The translations under genes were made by a program, and so were the position numbers. This document shows positions 18,491 through 22,651 of a stretch of DNA of 24,822 bases, one piece after another. The notes below the pieces were generated by a model. The model ran no database searches. It was given only the letters and a program-made list of their open reading frames with translations, and was not told the DNA's origin. The stretch is from NCBI GenBank assembly GCA_948687865.1, contig CAPQQE010000008.1:1-24822 (forward strand), in the 5' to 3' direction. This DNA is from an uncultured Bacilli bacterium. GTDB taxonomy: Bacteria; Bacillota_I; Bacilli_A; RF39; UBA660. Numbering within the stretch: the first letter of the stretch is position 1; each line of letters begins with the position of its first letter.

Positions 18491-19414
18491 ATGAATATAG
18501 GAAAATTTGTAGAAGTTGATATAAGAGATTTATGGAAGCATGAACAATATGATTTTTCAGAATGGCTATCAAAAGAAGAAAATATTGAAAATTTAAATGA
18601 TATATTAGGTTTAACTTTAGTTGATATAAGTAAAGAGGCATATGTTGGATCTTATAGATGTGATATTTTTGCTAAAGATGAAACAACTGGAACGAAAGTA
18701 ATTATTGAAAATCAGCTTGAAGCTTCAAACCATGATCATTTAGGAAAAATTATAACTTATGCTTCAGGATTAGATGCTAAAGTGGTTGTTTGGATTGTAA
18801 AACAAGCTAAAGAAGAACATAGAAGTGCTATAGAATGGTTGAACAATAATACAAACAATGAGTTGAATTTCTTTTTAATTGAACTTCATGCATACAAAAT
18901 TGATGATTCAAATCCAGCTCCAATGTTTGAAGTTATAGAAAAACCAAATGGATTTATAAAAAATACTAAAGCAATAAATAATCAAGACAACTTAAATAAA
19001 TCTCAATCTGAAAGATTAGAATTTTGGAATAAATTTAATGAAGTAGTAGAACAGAATGGAAAGCCTTTTAATATTAGAAAAGCTACAACAGATCATTGGT
19101 ATGATGTTGCTTTAGGAACAAGTGAAGCACATATAAGTATCAATTTAGTAAATAAAAGTTCTTATGTTGTTATAGATGTGTATATTAATGACAATAAAGA
19201 GTTATTTGATAAACTTATGGATAAGAAAGATATTATTGAGAGTGAATTAGGATTTAAACTTGTTTGGGATAGATTAGATAATGGGAAAGCTTCAAGGATT
19301 AAATATAGAATAAAAGGTTTGAATTTTGATGATCACTCAAATTATGAAGAACTTATGAAAGAAATAATAGACAAAGTTATTATAATGAGATCGGTATTTA
19401 AAAAATATATGTAA
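18491..19414 (+). CDS. DUF4268-like protein with putative PD-(D/E)xK nuclease-like domain
   Basis: A 307-residue protein whose ATG follows GGAGGTG by a few bases, 13 bases after hsdR, so it is in the same operon. Residues about 1-150 resemble a restriction-endonuclease-like fold: WLSKEENIENLNDILGL, then YRCDIFAKDETTGTKVIIENQLEASNHDHLGKIITYA, where Asp and Glu-x-Gln replace the usual D...ExK, as in other nuclease-like proteins of this type. Residues about 165-305 (SERLEFWNKFNEVVEQNGKPFNIRK to KYRIKGLNFDDHSNYEELMKEIIDKV) fit the DUF4268 region. Such proteins are frequent neighbours of restriction systems. It could be an extra nuclease, an anti-phage partner or a regulator of restriction. Gln in place of the catalytic Lys leaves activity uncertain. 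Confidence 0.75.
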   Translation: MNIGKFVEVDIRDLWKHEQYDFSEWLSKEENIENLNDILGLTLVDISKEAYVGSYRCDIFAKDETTGTKVIIENQLEASNHDHLGKIITYASGLDAKVVVWIVKQAKEEHRSAIEWLNNNTNNELNFFLIELHAYKIDDSNPAPMFEVIEKPNGFIKNTKAINNQDNLNKSQSERLEFWNKFNEVVEQNGKPFNIRKATTDHWYDVALGTSEAHISINLVNKSSYVVIDVYINDNKELFDKLMDKKDIIESELGFKLVWDRLDNGKASRIKYRIKGLNFDDHSNYEELMKEIIDKVIIMRSVFKKYM

Positions 19415-19418
19415 TCAG

Positions 19419-19444
19419 AAAGAAGGCTAGACCTTCTTTTTTTT
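19419..19444 (+). terminator. Terminator of the restriction operon
   Basis: AAAGAAGG pairs with CCTTCTTT around CTAGA, continuing into eight T. It begins five bases after the stop codon of the DUF4268-like gene. Confidence 0.9.
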
Positions 19445-19613
19445 GCCTCAAAATACTATACAAAACCAAAAAAATAAAATTTTATACAATAAATTACACC
19501 TTTTCGCATAATTCGACAAACTTTGCAAAAAGATTGTGATAGAATCCATTAAAACAAAAGAAAAATCCCTAAACTACCAAAGATGGAAAAGTAATAAGGA
19601 GTTGGGGGATAAA

Positions 19614-19682
19614 ATGGATATATCACAAAATACATTGAAAAATGTAAATAAATATACTAAACACACAATTAACCATTTATAA
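19614..19682 (+). CDS. 22-residue leader peptide MDISQNTLKNVNKYTKHTINHL
   Basis: ATG at 19614 follows AAGGAG (19596-19601) and GGGGGAT. The last seven codons and the stop lie inside the terminator hairpin at 19659-19701, with the stop in its apical loop. The peptide itself has no recognisable domain. Ribosome position on this ORF would decide whether the hairpin can form, which is the usual layout of translational attenuation. It probably reports on translation status to the downstream sigma-like gene. It is short, so coding is inferred from SD and layout only. Confidence 0.6.
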   Translation: MDISQNTLKNVNKYTKHTINHL

Positions 19683-19701
19683 GTTATTTGTGTGTTTTTT
19701 T
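19659..19701 (+). terminator. Attenuator-type terminator overlapping the leader ORF
   Basis: AAACACACAA pairs with TTGTGTGTTT (10 bp). After one mismatch TAAC pairs with GTTA around a nine-base loop that contains the leader stop codon, and a run of T ends at 19701. A ribosome finishing the leader would disrupt the stem and allow readthrough. Confidence 0.82.
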
Positions 19702-19726
19702 CAATTATTTTAATATCCAATAAAAT

Positions 19727-19849
19727 ACTACACTAATTTATAAAAATGTTCTAAGGAAAAATGAAAAGAAGAGATATATGTTAGTGTAGTTTTGAGCATT
19801 ATTACATAAATCTCAGCCTACACAAAAGGAGTGTAGTTGATTTGAGATT
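19727..19849 (+). promoter_or_regulatory. Alternative-pairing leader structure (four CTACAC/GTGTAG segments)
   Basis: Segment A ACTACACTAA (19727-19736) is perfectly complementary to B TTAGTGTAGT (19781-19790). Segment C CTACAC (19818-19823) pairs with D GTGTAG (19831-19836), and this inner hairpin is enclosed by AATCTCA (19809-19815) with TGAGATT (19843-19849). A can also pair with D, and B with C, so two exclusive folds are possible. The loop of C-D holds AAAAGGAG, an SD for the short frame starting at 19842. This is the hallmark of a switchable 5' leader; no known riboswitch class is recognised. Confidence 0.6.
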
Positions 19850-20024
19850 CAGTGTATTAAGAATGTCTGAAAAAATAATCAAAGAGGTTGAATTTATCTG
19901 TAAAGGTAGACTTGACCTCTTTTTGCTTTTATATGGATTAGTTAAATGCAGATCTCCACCTCACATTCAATTCAAAAACGAATTGAATGGAGGAAATAAG
20001 AATGAAAAAGCATTCAAAAATTAA
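19842..20024 (+). CDS. Possible 60-residue leader ORF overlapping the sigma-like gene
   Basis: A short frame starting with TTG at 19842, ten bases after AAAAGGAG, with an in-frame ATG at 19863. It reads MSEKIIKEVEFICKGRLDLF from the ATG and ends 23 bases inside the next gene. It spans a terminator-like hairpin (19881-19924) and the SD-blocking hairpin (19959-19993). Translating it would open both, so it could couple ribosome flow to expression of the downstream regulator. The alternative is that the frame is chance and the region is only structured RNA. The protein has no recognised domain. Confidence 0.4.
   Translation: MRFSVLRMSEKIIKEVEFICKGRLDLFLLLYGLVKCRSPPHIQFKNELNGGNKNEKAFKN
19881..19924 (+). 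terminator. Second leader terminator
   Basis: AAAGAGGT (19881-19888) pairs with ACCTCTTT (19915-19922), followed by more T and then GCTTTT. The loop is about 26 bases. It stands between the alternative-pairing leader and the sigma-like gene and would stop transcripts unless it is kept open. Confidence 0.65.
19959..19993 (+). promoter_or_regulatory. SD-sequestering hairpin of the sigma-like gene
   Basis: CATTCAATTC (19964-19973) pairs perfectly with GAATTGAATG (19980-19989) around AAAAAC. Beyond one bulged A, CCTC (19959-19962) pairs with GAGG (19990-19993). The SD of the gene at 20002 is GGAGG at 19989-19993, so it is buried completely in this 14-bp stem. Translation would need the stem to be opened by an upstream ribosome or another factor. 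Confidence 0.75.
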
Positions 20025-20487
20025 GCGAGAGATAATAGATACATATATTGTTTTTAGCAATAATGATAATAGCAAAAATATTATTGTATTTAAAGATGGA
20101 AACGGAAAATCAAAAATTATTAGAGCAAATGAAACATTAAGAAATGAATATAAAAAAAGAAAAAGTGAAGAAAACTCACAGAATATTAAATTTAGTAGGT
20201 ATATAGAACATTCAGAACTAACAGATATTTCATTAAATAAAAGAGCTACAAATAAAGAAATTAGTTTAGAAGAACAAGTTATTTCAAATTTAGAATCAGA
20301 AAGAATAATAAAAGAAATTTGGAAATTACCTACACCACAAAATAGGCGAGTTTATATGTATATAGTAGATGAATTTTCATATACCAAAATAGCTAAAATA
20401 GAAAATCGTTCTATTCCTACAGTAAAGGAGAGTATAGACAGAGGCTTAGAAAATTTAAGAAAAAAATTAAAGAAATTTTATAAGTAA
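20002..20487 (+). CDS. Small sigma-70-like (region 4) transcription regulator
   Basis: A 161-residue protein. ATG at 20002 is preferred to ATG at 19987, which lies within the SD/hairpin. Residues about 95-160 resemble sigma region 4: SLEEQVISNLESERIIKEIWKLPTPQNRRVYMYIVDEFSYTKIAKIENRSIPTVKESIDRGLENLRKKLKKF, with a helix-turn-helix of the FSYTKIAKIENRSIPTVKESIDRGL type. The N-terminal 90 residues are short and charged and lack a clear region 2, so it may be a sigma-like activator rather than a full sigma factor. Tn916-type elements carry a comparable small sigma-like gene upstream of xis and int, which fits its position here. Expression seems tightly controlled by the leader upstream. Confidence 0.8.
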   Translation: MKKHSKIKREIIDTYIVFSNNDNSKNIIVFKDGNGKSKIIRANETLRNEYKKRKSEENSQNIKFSRYIEHSELTDISLNKRATNKEISLEEQVISNLESERIIKEIWKLPTPQNRRVYMYIVDEFSYTKIAKIENRSIPTVKESIDRGLENLRKKLKKFYK

Positions 20488-20510
20488 CCCTAAAAAATGA
20501 TGTGATAACT

Positions 20511-20555
20511 GAAAAAACAAGTGAGAGGAGTTGATCTTTCTTGCTTGTTTTCTTT
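20511..20555 (+). terminator. Terminator after the sigma-like gene
   Basis: AAAACAAG (20514-20521) pairs with CTTGTTTT (20544-20551), and the stem continues inward through TGAGAG/CTTTCTTG with G-U pairs. A TCTTTT tail follows. Confidence 0.75.
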
Positions 20556-20807
20556 TGGAAAACGGATAGCACATTGACAAGTAAATATATTAGTTACAAG
20601 ACTTTAACTAATATAAGGAGCTCCAAGAAGGCGAATGTTATTAAAAATAAATAGCGACTATAATGAGGGAAAAAGCAAACGATGGTAAGTTTGTGTTGGC
20701 GAAGATCTATATTAGTAATAATGATACTTCAGCTCGGCTTAATTTATATTGAGGGGTTGCTCGGTTGGATAACGGAGAGGTTTAAATACCTATGTGATAG
20801 ATACCAA
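20556..20807 (+). ncRNA. Gene-free, GC-richer stretch, candidate structured RNA
   Basis: I see no convincing coding frame here. The stretch is richer in G and C than the genes around it. It has a perfect 10-bp hairpin TATATTAGTT (20586-20595)/AACTAATATA (20606-20615), a small CAAAC/GTTTG stem-loop near 20677-20694, a CTTAAT/ATTGAG stem-loop near 20739-20754, and a repeated GGCGAA (near 20630 and 20698). A TTGACA at 20574-20579 has no good -10. This could be a regulatory RNA, a long 5' leader for the 72-residue gene, or a recombination or transfer site. No known family is recognised, so the type is provisional. Confidence 0.35.
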
Positions 20808-20848
20808 TTTCACTTGTAACTAATTTTAAAAATTTATAAGTGAAAGGA
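20808..20848 (+). promoter_or_regulatory. Hairpin overlapping the SD of the 72-residue gene
   Basis: TTTCACTTGTAA (20808-20819) pairs with TTATAAGTGAAA (20834-20845), 12 pairs with one G-U. The SD AAAGGA is at 20843-20848, so half of it is in the stem. This is the second gene in this region with an SD partly or wholly held in a hairpin. Confidence 0.6.
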
Positions 20849-20858
20849 TTTGATTAAA

Positions 20859-21077
20859 ATGAAATTAAATAATGTAAAAACAGTAACTAAGAAACAGGCT
20901 AAAGCTTATGCAGTTATAGCATTAGATATATTAGGAAGTACACCAAACGATATTGATGTAAAAATGCTTGATTCAGAAATTGATGTTGCAATGAAATTAT
21001 ATAGTCCACGAGAAGCTACGGAAAAAGCAGAAAAAATTAAAGCGAAAGGTGGATTAGTAAAATGGATGAAAAAATAG
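20859..21077 (+). CDS. Small hypothetical protein upstream of xis
   Basis: A 72-residue protein. ATG at 20859 sits ten bases after AAAGGA; the TTG at 20850 is only one base from it and is rejected. The sequence MKLNNVKTVTKKQAKAYAVIALDILGSTPNDIDVKMLDSEIDVAMKLYSPREATEKAEKIKAKGG is helical and basic at both ends. No family is recognised. It overlaps xis by 16 bases, so the two are translated from the same message, and it may be an accessory of excision control. Confidence 0.65.
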   Translation: MKLNNVKTVTKKQAKAYAVIALDILGSTPNDIDVKMLDSEIDVAMKLYSPREATEKAEKIKAKGGLVKWMKK

Positions 21078-21247
21078 GTATAAATATAAAAGAAGCATCA
21101 GAGATATTAGGGATTAGTAAACAATTAATGACAGAATTAACGAAGCTTAAAGATTTTCCTTGTATTAAATTTGAAAGAAGAATTGTAATAAACAAGCCAC
21201 AGATGATTGAATGGTTTAATAAAAATTCAGGAAGAATCATTGTGTAG
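21062..21247 (+). CDS. xis: Excisionase (Xis)
   Basis: A 61-residue protein with the excisionase-type HTH (about residues 5-55): IGINIKEASEILGISKQLMTELTKLKDFPCIKFERRIVINKPQMIEWFNKNSG. The EASEILGIS turn, the FPCIKFERR wing and the final IEWFNK helix are typical of Xis proteins of Tn916-type and phage elements. It starts inside the previous gene (16-base overlap) behind AAAGGTGGA and lies 90 bases before int. Xis bends the attachment-site DNA and directs the integrase toward excision. The assignment is strengthened by adjacency to the integrase. Confidence 0.9.
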   Translation: MDEKIGINIKEASEILGISKQLMTELTKLKDFPCIKFERRIVINKPQMIEWFNKNSGRIIV

Positions 21248-21250
21248 GGT

Positions 21251-21279
21251 TTGGATTTACGAAGATAAGGATTTATAAT
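21251..21279 (+). promoter_or_regulatory. Integrase promoter
   Basis: TTGGAT (21251-21256), 17 bases, then a perfect TATAAT (21274-21279), directly after the xis stop. Transcription would start around 21286, inside the loop of the palindrome at 21269-21316. Confidence 0.72.
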
Positions 21280-21322
21280 ATTGGTAGTATATTTTACTTA
21301 GTAATATTATGAATCCTATTTT
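21269..21322 (+). terminator. Terminator-like palindrome overlapping the integrase promoter
   Basis: GGATTTATAATATT (21269-21282) pairs with AATATTATGAATCC (21303-21316), 14 pairs with one G-U, with an inner AGTA/TACT pair. TATTTTTA follows. A transcript coming from xis would contain both arms and could terminate; one starting at the integrase's own promoter would lack the left arm. Confidence 0.65.
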
Positions 21323-21337
21323 TATGGAGGAAATGAT

Positions 21338-22534
21338 ATGGGAAGAAGAGCAAAAAATGATAATACAAGGAGAGTAAAAGGAGAAGGCACAATAAGAAAA
21401 AAAGGTAATGGATATGAAGGGAGGATTACAGTTGAGGTAAATGGTGTAAGAAAACAAGTTTCAGTCTATGATAAAAGCCAACGAGTAGTTGTAGAAAAAA
21501 TGCAAGAGCTTAGGAAGAAGAGAGATGACAACTATTATATTGAGAATAAAAACATAACTTTGGAAGAATGGCTAAAAGAGTGGATGAGAGTTTATAAAAA
21601 GCCATATATATCACCTAGAACTTATCAGGGTTATGTTGAAAAATCTAAAACAATATTAGAACATTTAGGAAATATGCAATTACAAAAAATAGAATTATAT
21701 CATTTACAAAAATTTATTAGTGATTTACAAAATGTAGGTAAATCGCCTAAATCTTTAAGACATTATTATAGTATTTTAAAAATGTGTTTTGATGATGCAA
21801 TTATGTGTAGGCACATATCACTAAATCCAACAAGGAATTTAAAATTGCCATCAATGAGAAGAAAAGAATTAAATATAATGACAAAAGAAGAACAACTTGT
21901 ATTCGAAGGATTTATGAAAAAATATAGAATGGGAACAGCTTATATAGTATTAGTTAATACTGGACTTAGAGCAGGAGAACTAAGTGGATTAACATGGAAA
22001 GATGTTGATTTTGAAAACAAAGCTCTATATGTAAGAAGAGGTATGCAAAAAATAACAACTTATGATGATGAGTTTAATAAAGTAAAGAGAGAAAGAAAAG
22101 TTACAGATGTAAAAACAGAAAATAGTTATAGAGTTGTACCAATGCTAGATAAAGTAGTAAGAATTCTACAAGAATACAAGAAAAAAGTACAAGCAGAGCA
22201 AGAAGAACTTGCCGAATTAGGAGAAGGATTTAAAGAGGATGATTTTATATTTAAAACAAAATGTAATCATCCAATAACATCTGAATACTTAAGAAAAACT
22301 TGTCAGGAAATATGTAAAAGTAACAATTTTAGAAAAGTAGGAATACATGAACTAAGACATACTTTTGCAACAAGATCTATTGAAGCAGGAATCGATTTAA
22401 GAGTATTACAAGAAATATTAGGTCATGCTAGTTATAGTACAACAGCAGATATATATGTTCATATTTTAGGACAAGTCAAACTATCCCAAATGAATAGATT
22501 AGAAGATTATTTAACTGATATAAATATGAACTAA
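21338..22534 (+). CDS. int: Tyrosine-recombinase integrase
   Basis: A 398-residue site-specific recombinase, ATG at 21338 behind ATGGAGG. Residues about 15-60 form an arm-binding AP2-like domain (GEGTIRKKGNGYEGRITVEVNGVRKQVSVYDKS). About 70-165 is the SAM-like core-binding domain (TLEEWLKEWMRVYKKPYISPRTYQGY to PKSLRHYYSILKMCFDDAI). The catalytic domain has Arg211 (NTGLRAGEL), His337-x-x-Arg340 (HELRHTFATRS), His363 (LGHASYSTT) and nucleophile Tyr373 (DIYVHI). All catalytic residues are present and the length is normal for Tn916/phage-type integrases. It catalyses integration and, with Xis, excision. Its place at the right end, just before a tRNA-like 16-mer, is the usual arrangement. Confidence 0.97.
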   Translation: MGRRAKNDNTRRVKGEGTIRKKGNGYEGRITVEVNGVRKQVSVYDKSQRVVVEKMQELRKKRDDNYYIENKNITLEEWLKEWMRVYKKPYISPRTYQGYVEKSKTILEHLGNMQLQKIELYHLQKFISDLQNVGKSPKSLRHYYSILKMCFDDAIMCRHISLNPTRNLKLPSMRRKELNIMTKEEQLVFEGFMKKYRMGTAYIVLVNTGLRAGELSGLTWKDVDFENKALYVRRGMQKITTYDDEFNKVKRERKVTDVKTENSYRVVPMLDKVVRILQEYKKKVQAEQEELAELGEGFKEDDFIFKTKCNHPITSEYLRKTCQEICKSNNFRKVGIHELRHTFATRSIEAGIDLRVLQEILGHASYSTTADIYVHILGQVKLSQMNRLEDYLTDINMN

Positions 22535-22552
22535 ATGGAACTTTAAAACGAC

Positions 22553-22574
22553 ATAAAGGGAAAATAAAGGGAAA
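22553..22574 (+). repeat. Two abutting 11-bp direct repeats, candidate integrase arm sites
   Basis: ATAAAGGGAAA occurs twice back to back, 18 bases after the int stop and some 60 bases before the tRNA-like core. Short direct repeats beside int are typical binding sites for the N-terminal AP2-like domain of such integrases. No second cluster was located, since the left end is outside the window. Confidence 0.6.
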
Positions 22575-22621
22575 GCCTAAAAAATAAATCTCCAAACACC
22601 TGAGAATAAAGGCTTTCTCTA
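22570..22621 (+). terminator. Inverted repeat after int
   Basis: GGAAAGCCT near 22570-22578 and AGGCTTTCT near 22610-22620 form an 8- to 9-bp stem with a loop of about 30 bases. No T tract follows, so it is a weak terminator candidate or part of the attachment-site architecture. Confidence 0.4.
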
Positions 22622-22635
22622 AAAAACTTTCTGTC

Positions 22636-22651
22636 CTCATAACCCGAAGGT
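22636..22651 (+). other. Putative right attachment core matching initiator tRNA anticodon arm
   Basis: CTCATAACCCGAAGGT is identical to the anticodon loop and 3' stem of initiator tRNA-fMet as known from E. coli (anticodon CAT in CTCATAA). The flanks do not continue as tRNA on either side: no D-arm before it and no GGTTCAAATCC after it. It lies 102 bases after int. A G/C-rich 16-mer with this match next to an integrase is best explained as the attachment core, which would put the other junction at a tRNA-Met gene left of the window. The 3' part may have eroded, or only a short core is shared. Confidence 0.6.

Follow-up and report, generated by a model that had tools for sequence, protein, structure and literature searches.

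Gene content and features of the locus

The window (the whole stretch of DNA analysed, 24,822 nucleotides) carries a gene for a sigma-like regulator, followed by genes for an excisionase-like protein and a tyrosine integrase. The original prediction placed a layered leader at 19445-20001, before the regulator gene, and each of the pieces that it named was found at its place. The features of this region are as follows, where the promoter was read from the sequence.

18491-19414, DUF4268 gene, upstream of the leader and with a terminator-like hairpin behind it
19512-19545, + strand, putative promoter TTCGACA ... TAGAAT and putative start of the leader transcript
19614-19682, + strand, ORF1, 22 codons from an ATG, MDISQNTLKNVNKYTKHTINHL, with its stop TAA (19680-19682) in the loop of hairpin 1
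19659-19703, + strand, terminator-like hairpin 1 with T tract (stem-loop 19659-19697)
19727-19790, + strand, hairpin A:B (CTACAC ... GTGTAG) with a long loop (A 19727-19736, B 19781-19790)
19818-19836, + strand, hairpin C:D, with the leader SD AAAAGGA in its loop
19842-20024, + strand, leader peptide ORF with a TTG start, MRFSVLRMSEKIIKEVEFICKGRLDLFLLLYGLVKCRSPPHIQFKNELNGGNKNEKAFKN, sharing 23 nt with the sigma-like gene, which is read in another frame
19881-19924, + strand, terminator-like hairpin 2 and its T tract, within the leader ORF
19947-19961, + strand, Cys-Arg-Ser-Pro-Pro codons TGC AGA TCT CCA CCT, an arrest-type core (predicted P site 19956-19958)
19959-19993, + strand, SD hairpin of 4+10 bp with one bulge, burying the GGAGG (19989-19993) of the sigma-like gene
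20002-20487, + strand, sigma-like regulator, 161 aa, with a sigma70 region 4-like C terminus and a strand-rich N-terminal part
20718-20795, + strand, pemK RNA motif (RF02913), Rfam score 50.6 bits against a gathering cut-off of 34.8
21062-21247, + strand, HTH_17 protein, excisionase-like (Pfam and ORF list)
21338-22534, + strand, tyrosine integrase (profile search)

The C-terminal part of the sigma-like protein resembles Pfam Sigma70_r4_2 (E 1.5e-4, below the curated cut-off), 20 NCBIfam sigma families were listed for it, all below their cut-offs, and profile matches were obtained to FliA and SigW chains. A model predicted from 22 sequences (mean pLDDT 77, pTM 0.42) has four strands, one long helix and C-terminal helices. 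The strands and the long helix make up the N-terminal half (20002-20240), modelled with moderate confidence, and this half is presumably unlike sigma region 2. We take the protein to be the activator of the element, which is likely.

A small ORF lies between the pemK RNA motif and the HTH_17 gene, and perfectly complementary 12-nt arms (20589-20600 and 20813-20824) flank the pemK RNA region in the window. Besides the window, four of the 20 relatives scanned carry the pemK RNA 3' of the sigma-like gene (L013 2089-2167, L016 1151-1231, L024 1158-1238 and L026 2137-2217). As for the leader, Rfam searches at the gathering threshold over the whole window and at E <= 1 over 19380-20900 placed it in no family and returned only the pemK RNA downstream.

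Collection of related loci

The closest relative on a genome contig is L001, from an uncultured Clostridia MAG, whose sigma-like protein is 94% identical. It shares approximately 19451-22651 with the window at 82.5% DNA identity, and 79% across the leader. Homologues of the sigma-like protein were found in 112 of 390 genomes of the family of L001 (E <= 1e-3) and in 43 of 385 genomes of its order (E <= 1e-10), two genome sets that overlap. With the sigma-like protein of the window as query and matches at roughly E <= 1e-7, we obtained 73 loci including the window and L001, which fall into 52 clusters at 85% amino-acid identity. We left out weaker family matches, one match at a contig start (G294:C22), L002 and L004 (which coincide with L001) and L003 (a match of 27 nt at another site of the L001 genome). 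L010 and L022 have too little upstream sequence.

The upstream half of the leader

Four of the five hairpins of the leader are more stable than all 200 of their shuffles, namely hairpin 1 (-13.4 kcal/mol, z -4.8), A:B (z -4.2), hairpin 2 (-18.5 kcal/mol, z -4.9) and the SD hairpin (-18.4 kcal/mol, z -5.1). The fifth, C:D (z -2.5), was matched by 4 of 200 shuffles. A simple terminator scan flagged C:D only and left both terminators uncalled because of mismatches in their stems.

TTCGACA and most of the promoter block are also present in L001. The consensus scan missed this putative promoter, and its promoter-like sites (8, against 10.6 in shuffles) were fewer than expected by chance. One weak promoter-like site on the + strand (19698-19726) lies just 3' of hairpin 1 and, if real, would bypass ORF1. 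A promoter directly before 20002, named in the original prediction as evidence against it, did not appear, as the scan called no + strand site within 19727-20002.

According to that prediction, the whole leader would be a stacked switch, induced for example by ribosome-targeting antibiotics or starvation, in which ORF1 and the CTACAC segments would act as sensors. Several of its parts are real: a 22-codon ORF does end in a terminator loop, the SD of the second short frame does sit in a hairpin loop, and the four CTACAC/GTGTAG segments, together with C:D, are identical in L001. A slowing of ribosomes would also plausibly act on any such leader. The two exclusive folds proposed for the segments both exist, but the local pairs win in folding (A:B -15.3 and C:D -11.4, against A:D -10.7 and B:C -8.3). 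ORF1 itself is traced to L001 only, and even there its counterpart has 17 codons and a different peptide. The alignment search for the segments covered L001, so that the four-segment switch is traced to this one close relative only, and the search among relatives for a conserved upstream switch established none. Just 20 of 49 clusters have an additional terminator farther up, 150-430 nt before the Arg codon, and it is possibly not in all cases a part of the leader. We regard the stacked switch with these sensors as unlikely, and it is compatible with the explanation that we prefer, developed below for the downstream half.

In the same region, GAGATATATGTTAGTG could by eye pair with CATTATTACATAAATCTC (19771-19814), a third alternative to A:B and the outer C:D stem, and a counterpart of this pairing appears in the predicted fold of L001.

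A conserved R-x-P-P core in the leader frame

The second short frame of the original prediction is present at 19842-20024, but its Cys-Arg-Ser-Pro-Pro core had been overlooked. When the leaders were read side by side, C-R-x-P-P was found at the beginning of the SD hairpin. Ribosome-arrest peptides of the RAPP type have R-[A/G/S/D]-P-P as their core, and the window has it as RSPP, near the C terminus of a small ORF directly upstream of and codirectional with the regulator gene; the leader frame is long or runs into the next gene in 6 of 49 clusters.

Upstream sequence of 150 nt or more was available for 71 loci. Of these, 65 have R[SGDA]PP at the leader position; counted by cluster at 85% amino-acid identity, the figure is 45 of 50. 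Our script found 63 of these cores (RSPP 37, RGPP 11, RDPP 8 and RAPP 7); L039 (RAPP) and L066 (RSPP) lie outside its span and SD filter and were placed separately, which gives the total of 65. One-residue variants are found in five loci (RSPT in L050 and L051, RSPS in L013, KSPP in L065 and HSPP in L076), and L052 is the sole locus of the 71 without such a leader. Position x is S, G, D or A only. All four residues fall within the permissive set reported in PMC12992588 from ApdA/ApdP mutagenesis, in which Gly is at least as good as Ala, Ser, Asp and Pro are partly permissive, and Arg is irreplaceable. The same source assayed these peptides with other N-terminal sequences, and RSPP and RDPP were only partly permissive there.

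The two prolines alone are no independent evidence, since CCNCC is also an anti-SD. CCNCC lies 22-50 nt upstream of 106 distinct GGAGG starts, and 32 of these have no Arg two codons before it; some of the 32 are shifted readings of the same motif and others are unrelated. It could then be asked whether the switch works by RNA only, with the conserved CCUCC as anti-SD, the rest as structure and the peptide motif as a by-product of base pairing. The hairpin is indeed strongly conserved and CCNCC pairs with GGAGG, as this explanation would have it. However, the Cys-Arg-Ser codons lie upstream of the stem, and they are kept across switches between codon families: the Arg codons are AGR in 25 and CGN in 21, and the Ser codons AGY in 24 and TCN in 4, of 48 cluster representatives, which argues for selection on the peptide. 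Moreover, the frame that is open upstream is the RxPP frame alone, where the median open length is 52 codons (6 and 3 for the two others; 49 clusters); at least 25 codons are open in 40 of 49 clusters in this frame and in 3 and 1 in the others. An RNA-only switch is therefore highly improbable in our judgement.

In 47 of 49 clusters the codon two positions ahead of PP is an Arg codon, for which composition predicts a chance of 0.046. Furthermore, R[SGAD]PP is absent from 1460 other 170-nt stretches of the same cluster representatives read in three frames, and RxPP of any kind occurs in 2 of them. Cys precedes Arg in 28 of 30 clusters with RSPP or RDPP, as opposed to 8 of 15 with RAPP or RGPP (Fisher p 0.003, 45 representatives).

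The remainder of the peptide is variable. Between the window and L001, the 35 codons before CRSPP comprise 20 non-synonymous, 3 synonymous and 12 identical ones. As these residues are unconserved, nothing but the core points to a specific interaction in the tunnel, and only the open frame and the core seem to be constrained in the leader peptide, as far as the sequences tell. Seven homologous predicted metagenome peptides retain CRSPPHIQFKNELNGG, a stretch that doubles as hairpin. Leader lengths range from 6 to 66 aa before Arg, and 3 of 49 representatives (L018, L049 and L054) showed no start codon. The shortest leaders (6-14 aa before Arg) hardly have room for an N-terminal localization signal. 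Five loci of this length (L023, L050, L057, L063 and L070) have the leader SD within the stem of the terminator-like hairpin, and leader initiation and termination may compete there.

Wherever annotation allowed comparison, the leaders sat in unannotated or unlisted frames. In seven loci (L026, L027, L040, L075, L091, L097 and L102) no stop separates the leader from the sigma-like gene, which shares its frame; the resulting open frames have 213-252 aa, and gene callers may annotate such leaders as N-terminal extensions.

A terminator inside the leader frame

A second terminator inside the second frame had also been predicted, and hairpin 2 with its T tract lies there. A hairpin with a T tract at most 170 nt upstream of the Arg codon was found in 43 of 49 representatives (cut-off -6 kcal/mol), with a median of -18.2 kcal/mol against -3.5 kcal/mol in shuffles; 6 of 49 have none at this cut-off. 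Among the 43, the hairpin is wholly inside the leader ORF in 31, across the start in 4 and before the start in 7, and one has no start codon. By folding, the leader ORF thus overlaps an intrinsic terminator, as in transcription attenuation. Because the terminator is upstream of the core, an arrest at the core cannot rescue the same transcript from termination, and leader translation can. It follows from this order that two steps would act in series.

The SD hairpin and the register of the ribosome

The 14-bp hairpin said to bury the SD of the regulator gene is present as 4+10 bp. Its 5' arm covers 19959-19973, and the second Pro codon forms its first bases. The register described for RAPP arrest in PMC10951233 places the P site at 19956-19958 in the window, and a leading edge 15 nt ahead of it would cover up to about 19972.

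We inferred the SD hairpin by folding free of register; the MAFFT alignment gapped the stems and was left out of the counting. Native hairpins have a mean energy of -16.8 kcal/mol, compared with -9.2 kcal/mol for chimeras (48 loci). The native one is the best in 19 of 48 loci, and a median of 1 of 47 chimeras is as stable. In a gapless count of columns over 12 SD hairpins, 67% were paired, against 58% with re-dealt arms (1 in 1000 as good) and 40-58% with slid controls; differences in the bulge keep the margin over the control modest.

In folding of the 49 representatives, the median unpaired probability of GGAGG rose from 0.00 in the free RNA to 0.77 once a ribosome was placed on the core, and in the window from 0.00 to 0.97. 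It was below 0.3 when free in 44 of 49 and above 0.7 when stalled in 31 of 49, and both held in 30 of 49. The other 19 fell short on one side or both, one of them (L043) through an SD misplaced by the script.

Plain translational coupling could use the same parts. Ribosomes that pass or end in the leader would then suppress the terminator and melt the SD hairpin with no arrest at all, and RxPP would be incidental. The leader frame does enter the hairpin in every representative (a consequence of how the set was built), its stop is before or in the SD in 28 of 49, which is a usual layout for coupling, and the orf7 leader of pCF10, which lacks RxPP, combines an open frame with a terminator-like hairpin and an SD hairpin. 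What coupling leaves unexplained is the Arg codon two before PP, the restriction of x to four residues and the absence of R[SGAD]PP elsewhere. In addition, the leader passes the SD in 15 of 49, much further in 6; in the window its stop begins 20 nt past the first base of the activator start codon. We consider coupling without arrest quite improbable, and an arrest-type RxPP in register with the SD hairpin is most likely the way in which the last step opens.

The original prediction proposed conservation among relatives as a test. The second frame, the terminator and the SD hairpin recur in most of the 49 clusters and stand up to it; for ORF1 and the CTACAC segments support extends no further than L001.

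Distribution and mobile context

Within the class, 54 of 391 genomes had a match, and among the matches listed we examined 25 new loci (L077-L081 are repeats). RSPP lies directly before the sigma-like gene in 16 of them, and in L085-L087 it precedes the first gene of a cassette some 1.2 kb upstream. The motif was not found in 6 of the 25, among which L083 has only 238 nt upstream and L096 is a partial match.

In the named records, 4 of 36 plasmid records and 2 of 4 phage records were examined. RSPP is present in the E. faecalis plasmid NZ_CP110291 beside bcr genes, in a Monoglobus plasmid before the first of two sigma-like genes, and in a Subdoligranulum plasmid and two phage-like contigs. Two Tet(O)-type records have it as well, ahead of the cassette's first gene. 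An earlier candidate class of Tet(O)-type elements without the motif was dropped, the motif preceding the first gene of their cassette. A Cohnella record reads RSPL, not RSPP. The scan of viral contigs gave no relative, and the DNA search of phage records gave no match.

In the window and L001, xis and the integrase lie 3' of the sigma-like gene. tblastn with both proteins of the window found them downstream in only two (L001 and L029) of the 58 loci that had 1300 nt or more, and thus the integrases differ among relatives. By Pfam, in the genomes of 40 relatives, a tyrosine integrase lies 1.5-2.3 kb downstream on the same strand at at least 8 sigma-like places (among the matches listed, G122, G294, G346, G368 twice, G390, G696 and G784), and a relaxase lies 7-35 kb upstream on the same strand at at least 12. 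The mobility of the remaining relatives is unproven. Searched against plasmids, the integrase of the window matched 848 records, all below 60% identity, and its sigma-like protein matched 2 plasmid records, pCF10 not included.

Comparison with known systems

The Tn916-type order of sigma-like gene, xis and tyrosine integrase is found in the window and in pCF10. The orf7 module of Tn916/Tn925 (pCF10, L114) resembles the window in its order of sigma-like gene, small gene, xis and int, and also in leader layout, as an open frame before orf7 (L114 2300-2504) runs over a terminator-like hairpin into a strong SD hairpin. This frame reads T-N-P-P and has no RxPP; the likeness is one of gene order and layout, and the pCF10 leader is possibly a cousin of that in the window. 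Attenuation at tet(M) in the conjugative transposon Tn916 (cited in PMC7288454) likewise involves a short leader that is translated and overlaps a terminator, but it acts on a resistance gene. To our knowledge, the tet(M) leader has been described with neither an arrest motif nor an activator's SD hairpin. The main texts of two papers on Tn916 (PMC11658703 and PMC7288454) do not contain the word "leader".

With ApdA, ApdP, ApcA and SecM/RQH (PMC10951233, PMC10987492, PMC12992588) the present leaders share an R-x-P-P near the end of a small uORF. With SecM-secA they share a folded ribosome-binding site that is opened by the stalled ribosome, here at the core and as predicted by folding. As these sources describe them, known RAPP-type peptides mostly carry localization signals and precede sec/yidC genes, or genes for metal or redox functions in many cases of the wider survey; for the sec/yidC leaders, PMC10987492 lists RSPP and HGPP uORFs among the known ones. 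In contrast, the leaders here have 6-66 aa before Arg, mostly C-R-S-P-P and a terminator in or near the ORF, with the sigma-like gene of an integrative element downstream and a Bacillota host.

CruR, the copper leader of Bordetella pertussis (PMC9426467), is alike in that a small RAPP ORF decides on transcription into the next gene. It is reported there as Rho-dependent, with a CXXC copper motif and 145 aa, whereas the present leaders encode much shorter peptides and carry both an SD hairpin and a terminator-like one. A metal sensor based on cysteine, like that of CruR, was considered as a candidate reading of the present leaders. SLIV_33595 and SLIV_33605 of S. lividans (PMC12992588) are RAPP/RGPP peptides before ECF sigma genes; they have four predicted transmembrane segments and come from an actinomycete, and the account of them in that paper mentions no link to mobile elements. 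According to the survey in the same paper, RAPP/RGPP uORFs precede diverse genes and are absent in many Gram-positives including Bacillota. The uORF survey was made on annotated RAPP/RGPP proteins, and the paper counts RSPP and RDPP among avoided motifs. Our literature search found no description of the present leader family; most subscription papers were outside its reach.

Proposed mechanism and implications

The frame, its motif, the predicted hairpins, their register and their conservation are read directly from the loci. We consider it probable that 19842-20024 is a RAPP-type regulatory leader, in which translation suppresses termination and an RxPP arrest then frees the SD of the activator gene. 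In the first step, RNA polymerase would reach the terminator at 19881-19924, and a ribosome on the leader frame just behind it would cover the terminator stem, so that transcription continues into the sigma-like gene. In the second step, whose motif is proven elsewhere, the ribosome would halt when peptidyl-Arg-Ser-Pro occupies the P site (19956-19958) and the A site holds Pro; that it does so at RSPP is suggested by analogy with the known arrest peptides. Its leading edge, about 15 nt ahead, would cover 19959 to about 19972, which is nearly the whole 5' arm, leaving GGAGG (19989-19993) single-stranded for translation of the sigma-like protein. Without leader translation the RNA would terminate, and without arrest the SD would be folded away or crossed by the leader ribosome. 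As the presumed activator, the sigma-like protein may in turn affect excision or transfer.

EF-P did not release RAPP arrest in vitro (PMC12992588). EF-P acting on RSPP would be the first candidate for a signal, along with whatever slows or frees ribosomes. On a wider scale, and more tentatively, the leaders may represent a large, undescribed RxPP family that controls activators of integrative elements across Clostridia, some of them beside resistance genes. In such a family, leader translation would license transcription, C-R-x-P-P arrest would then license translation, and core strength would be tuned, the element possibly reading the state of host translation to decide on moving.

How integrative and conjugative elements are switched on is a long-standing question, and the answer has usually been sought in DNA-binding repressors. 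Arrest in a leader peptide before the activator would tie their mobility to the behaviour of ribosomes. It would also extend RAPP-type arrest peptides to the mobile elements of Bacillota, for which the survey in PMC12992588 reports such uORFs as absent. Most of the leaders here carry RSPP, beyond the two motifs of that survey, and lie in unannotated or unlisted frames wherever annotation could be compared, which may explain why they have been overlooked.
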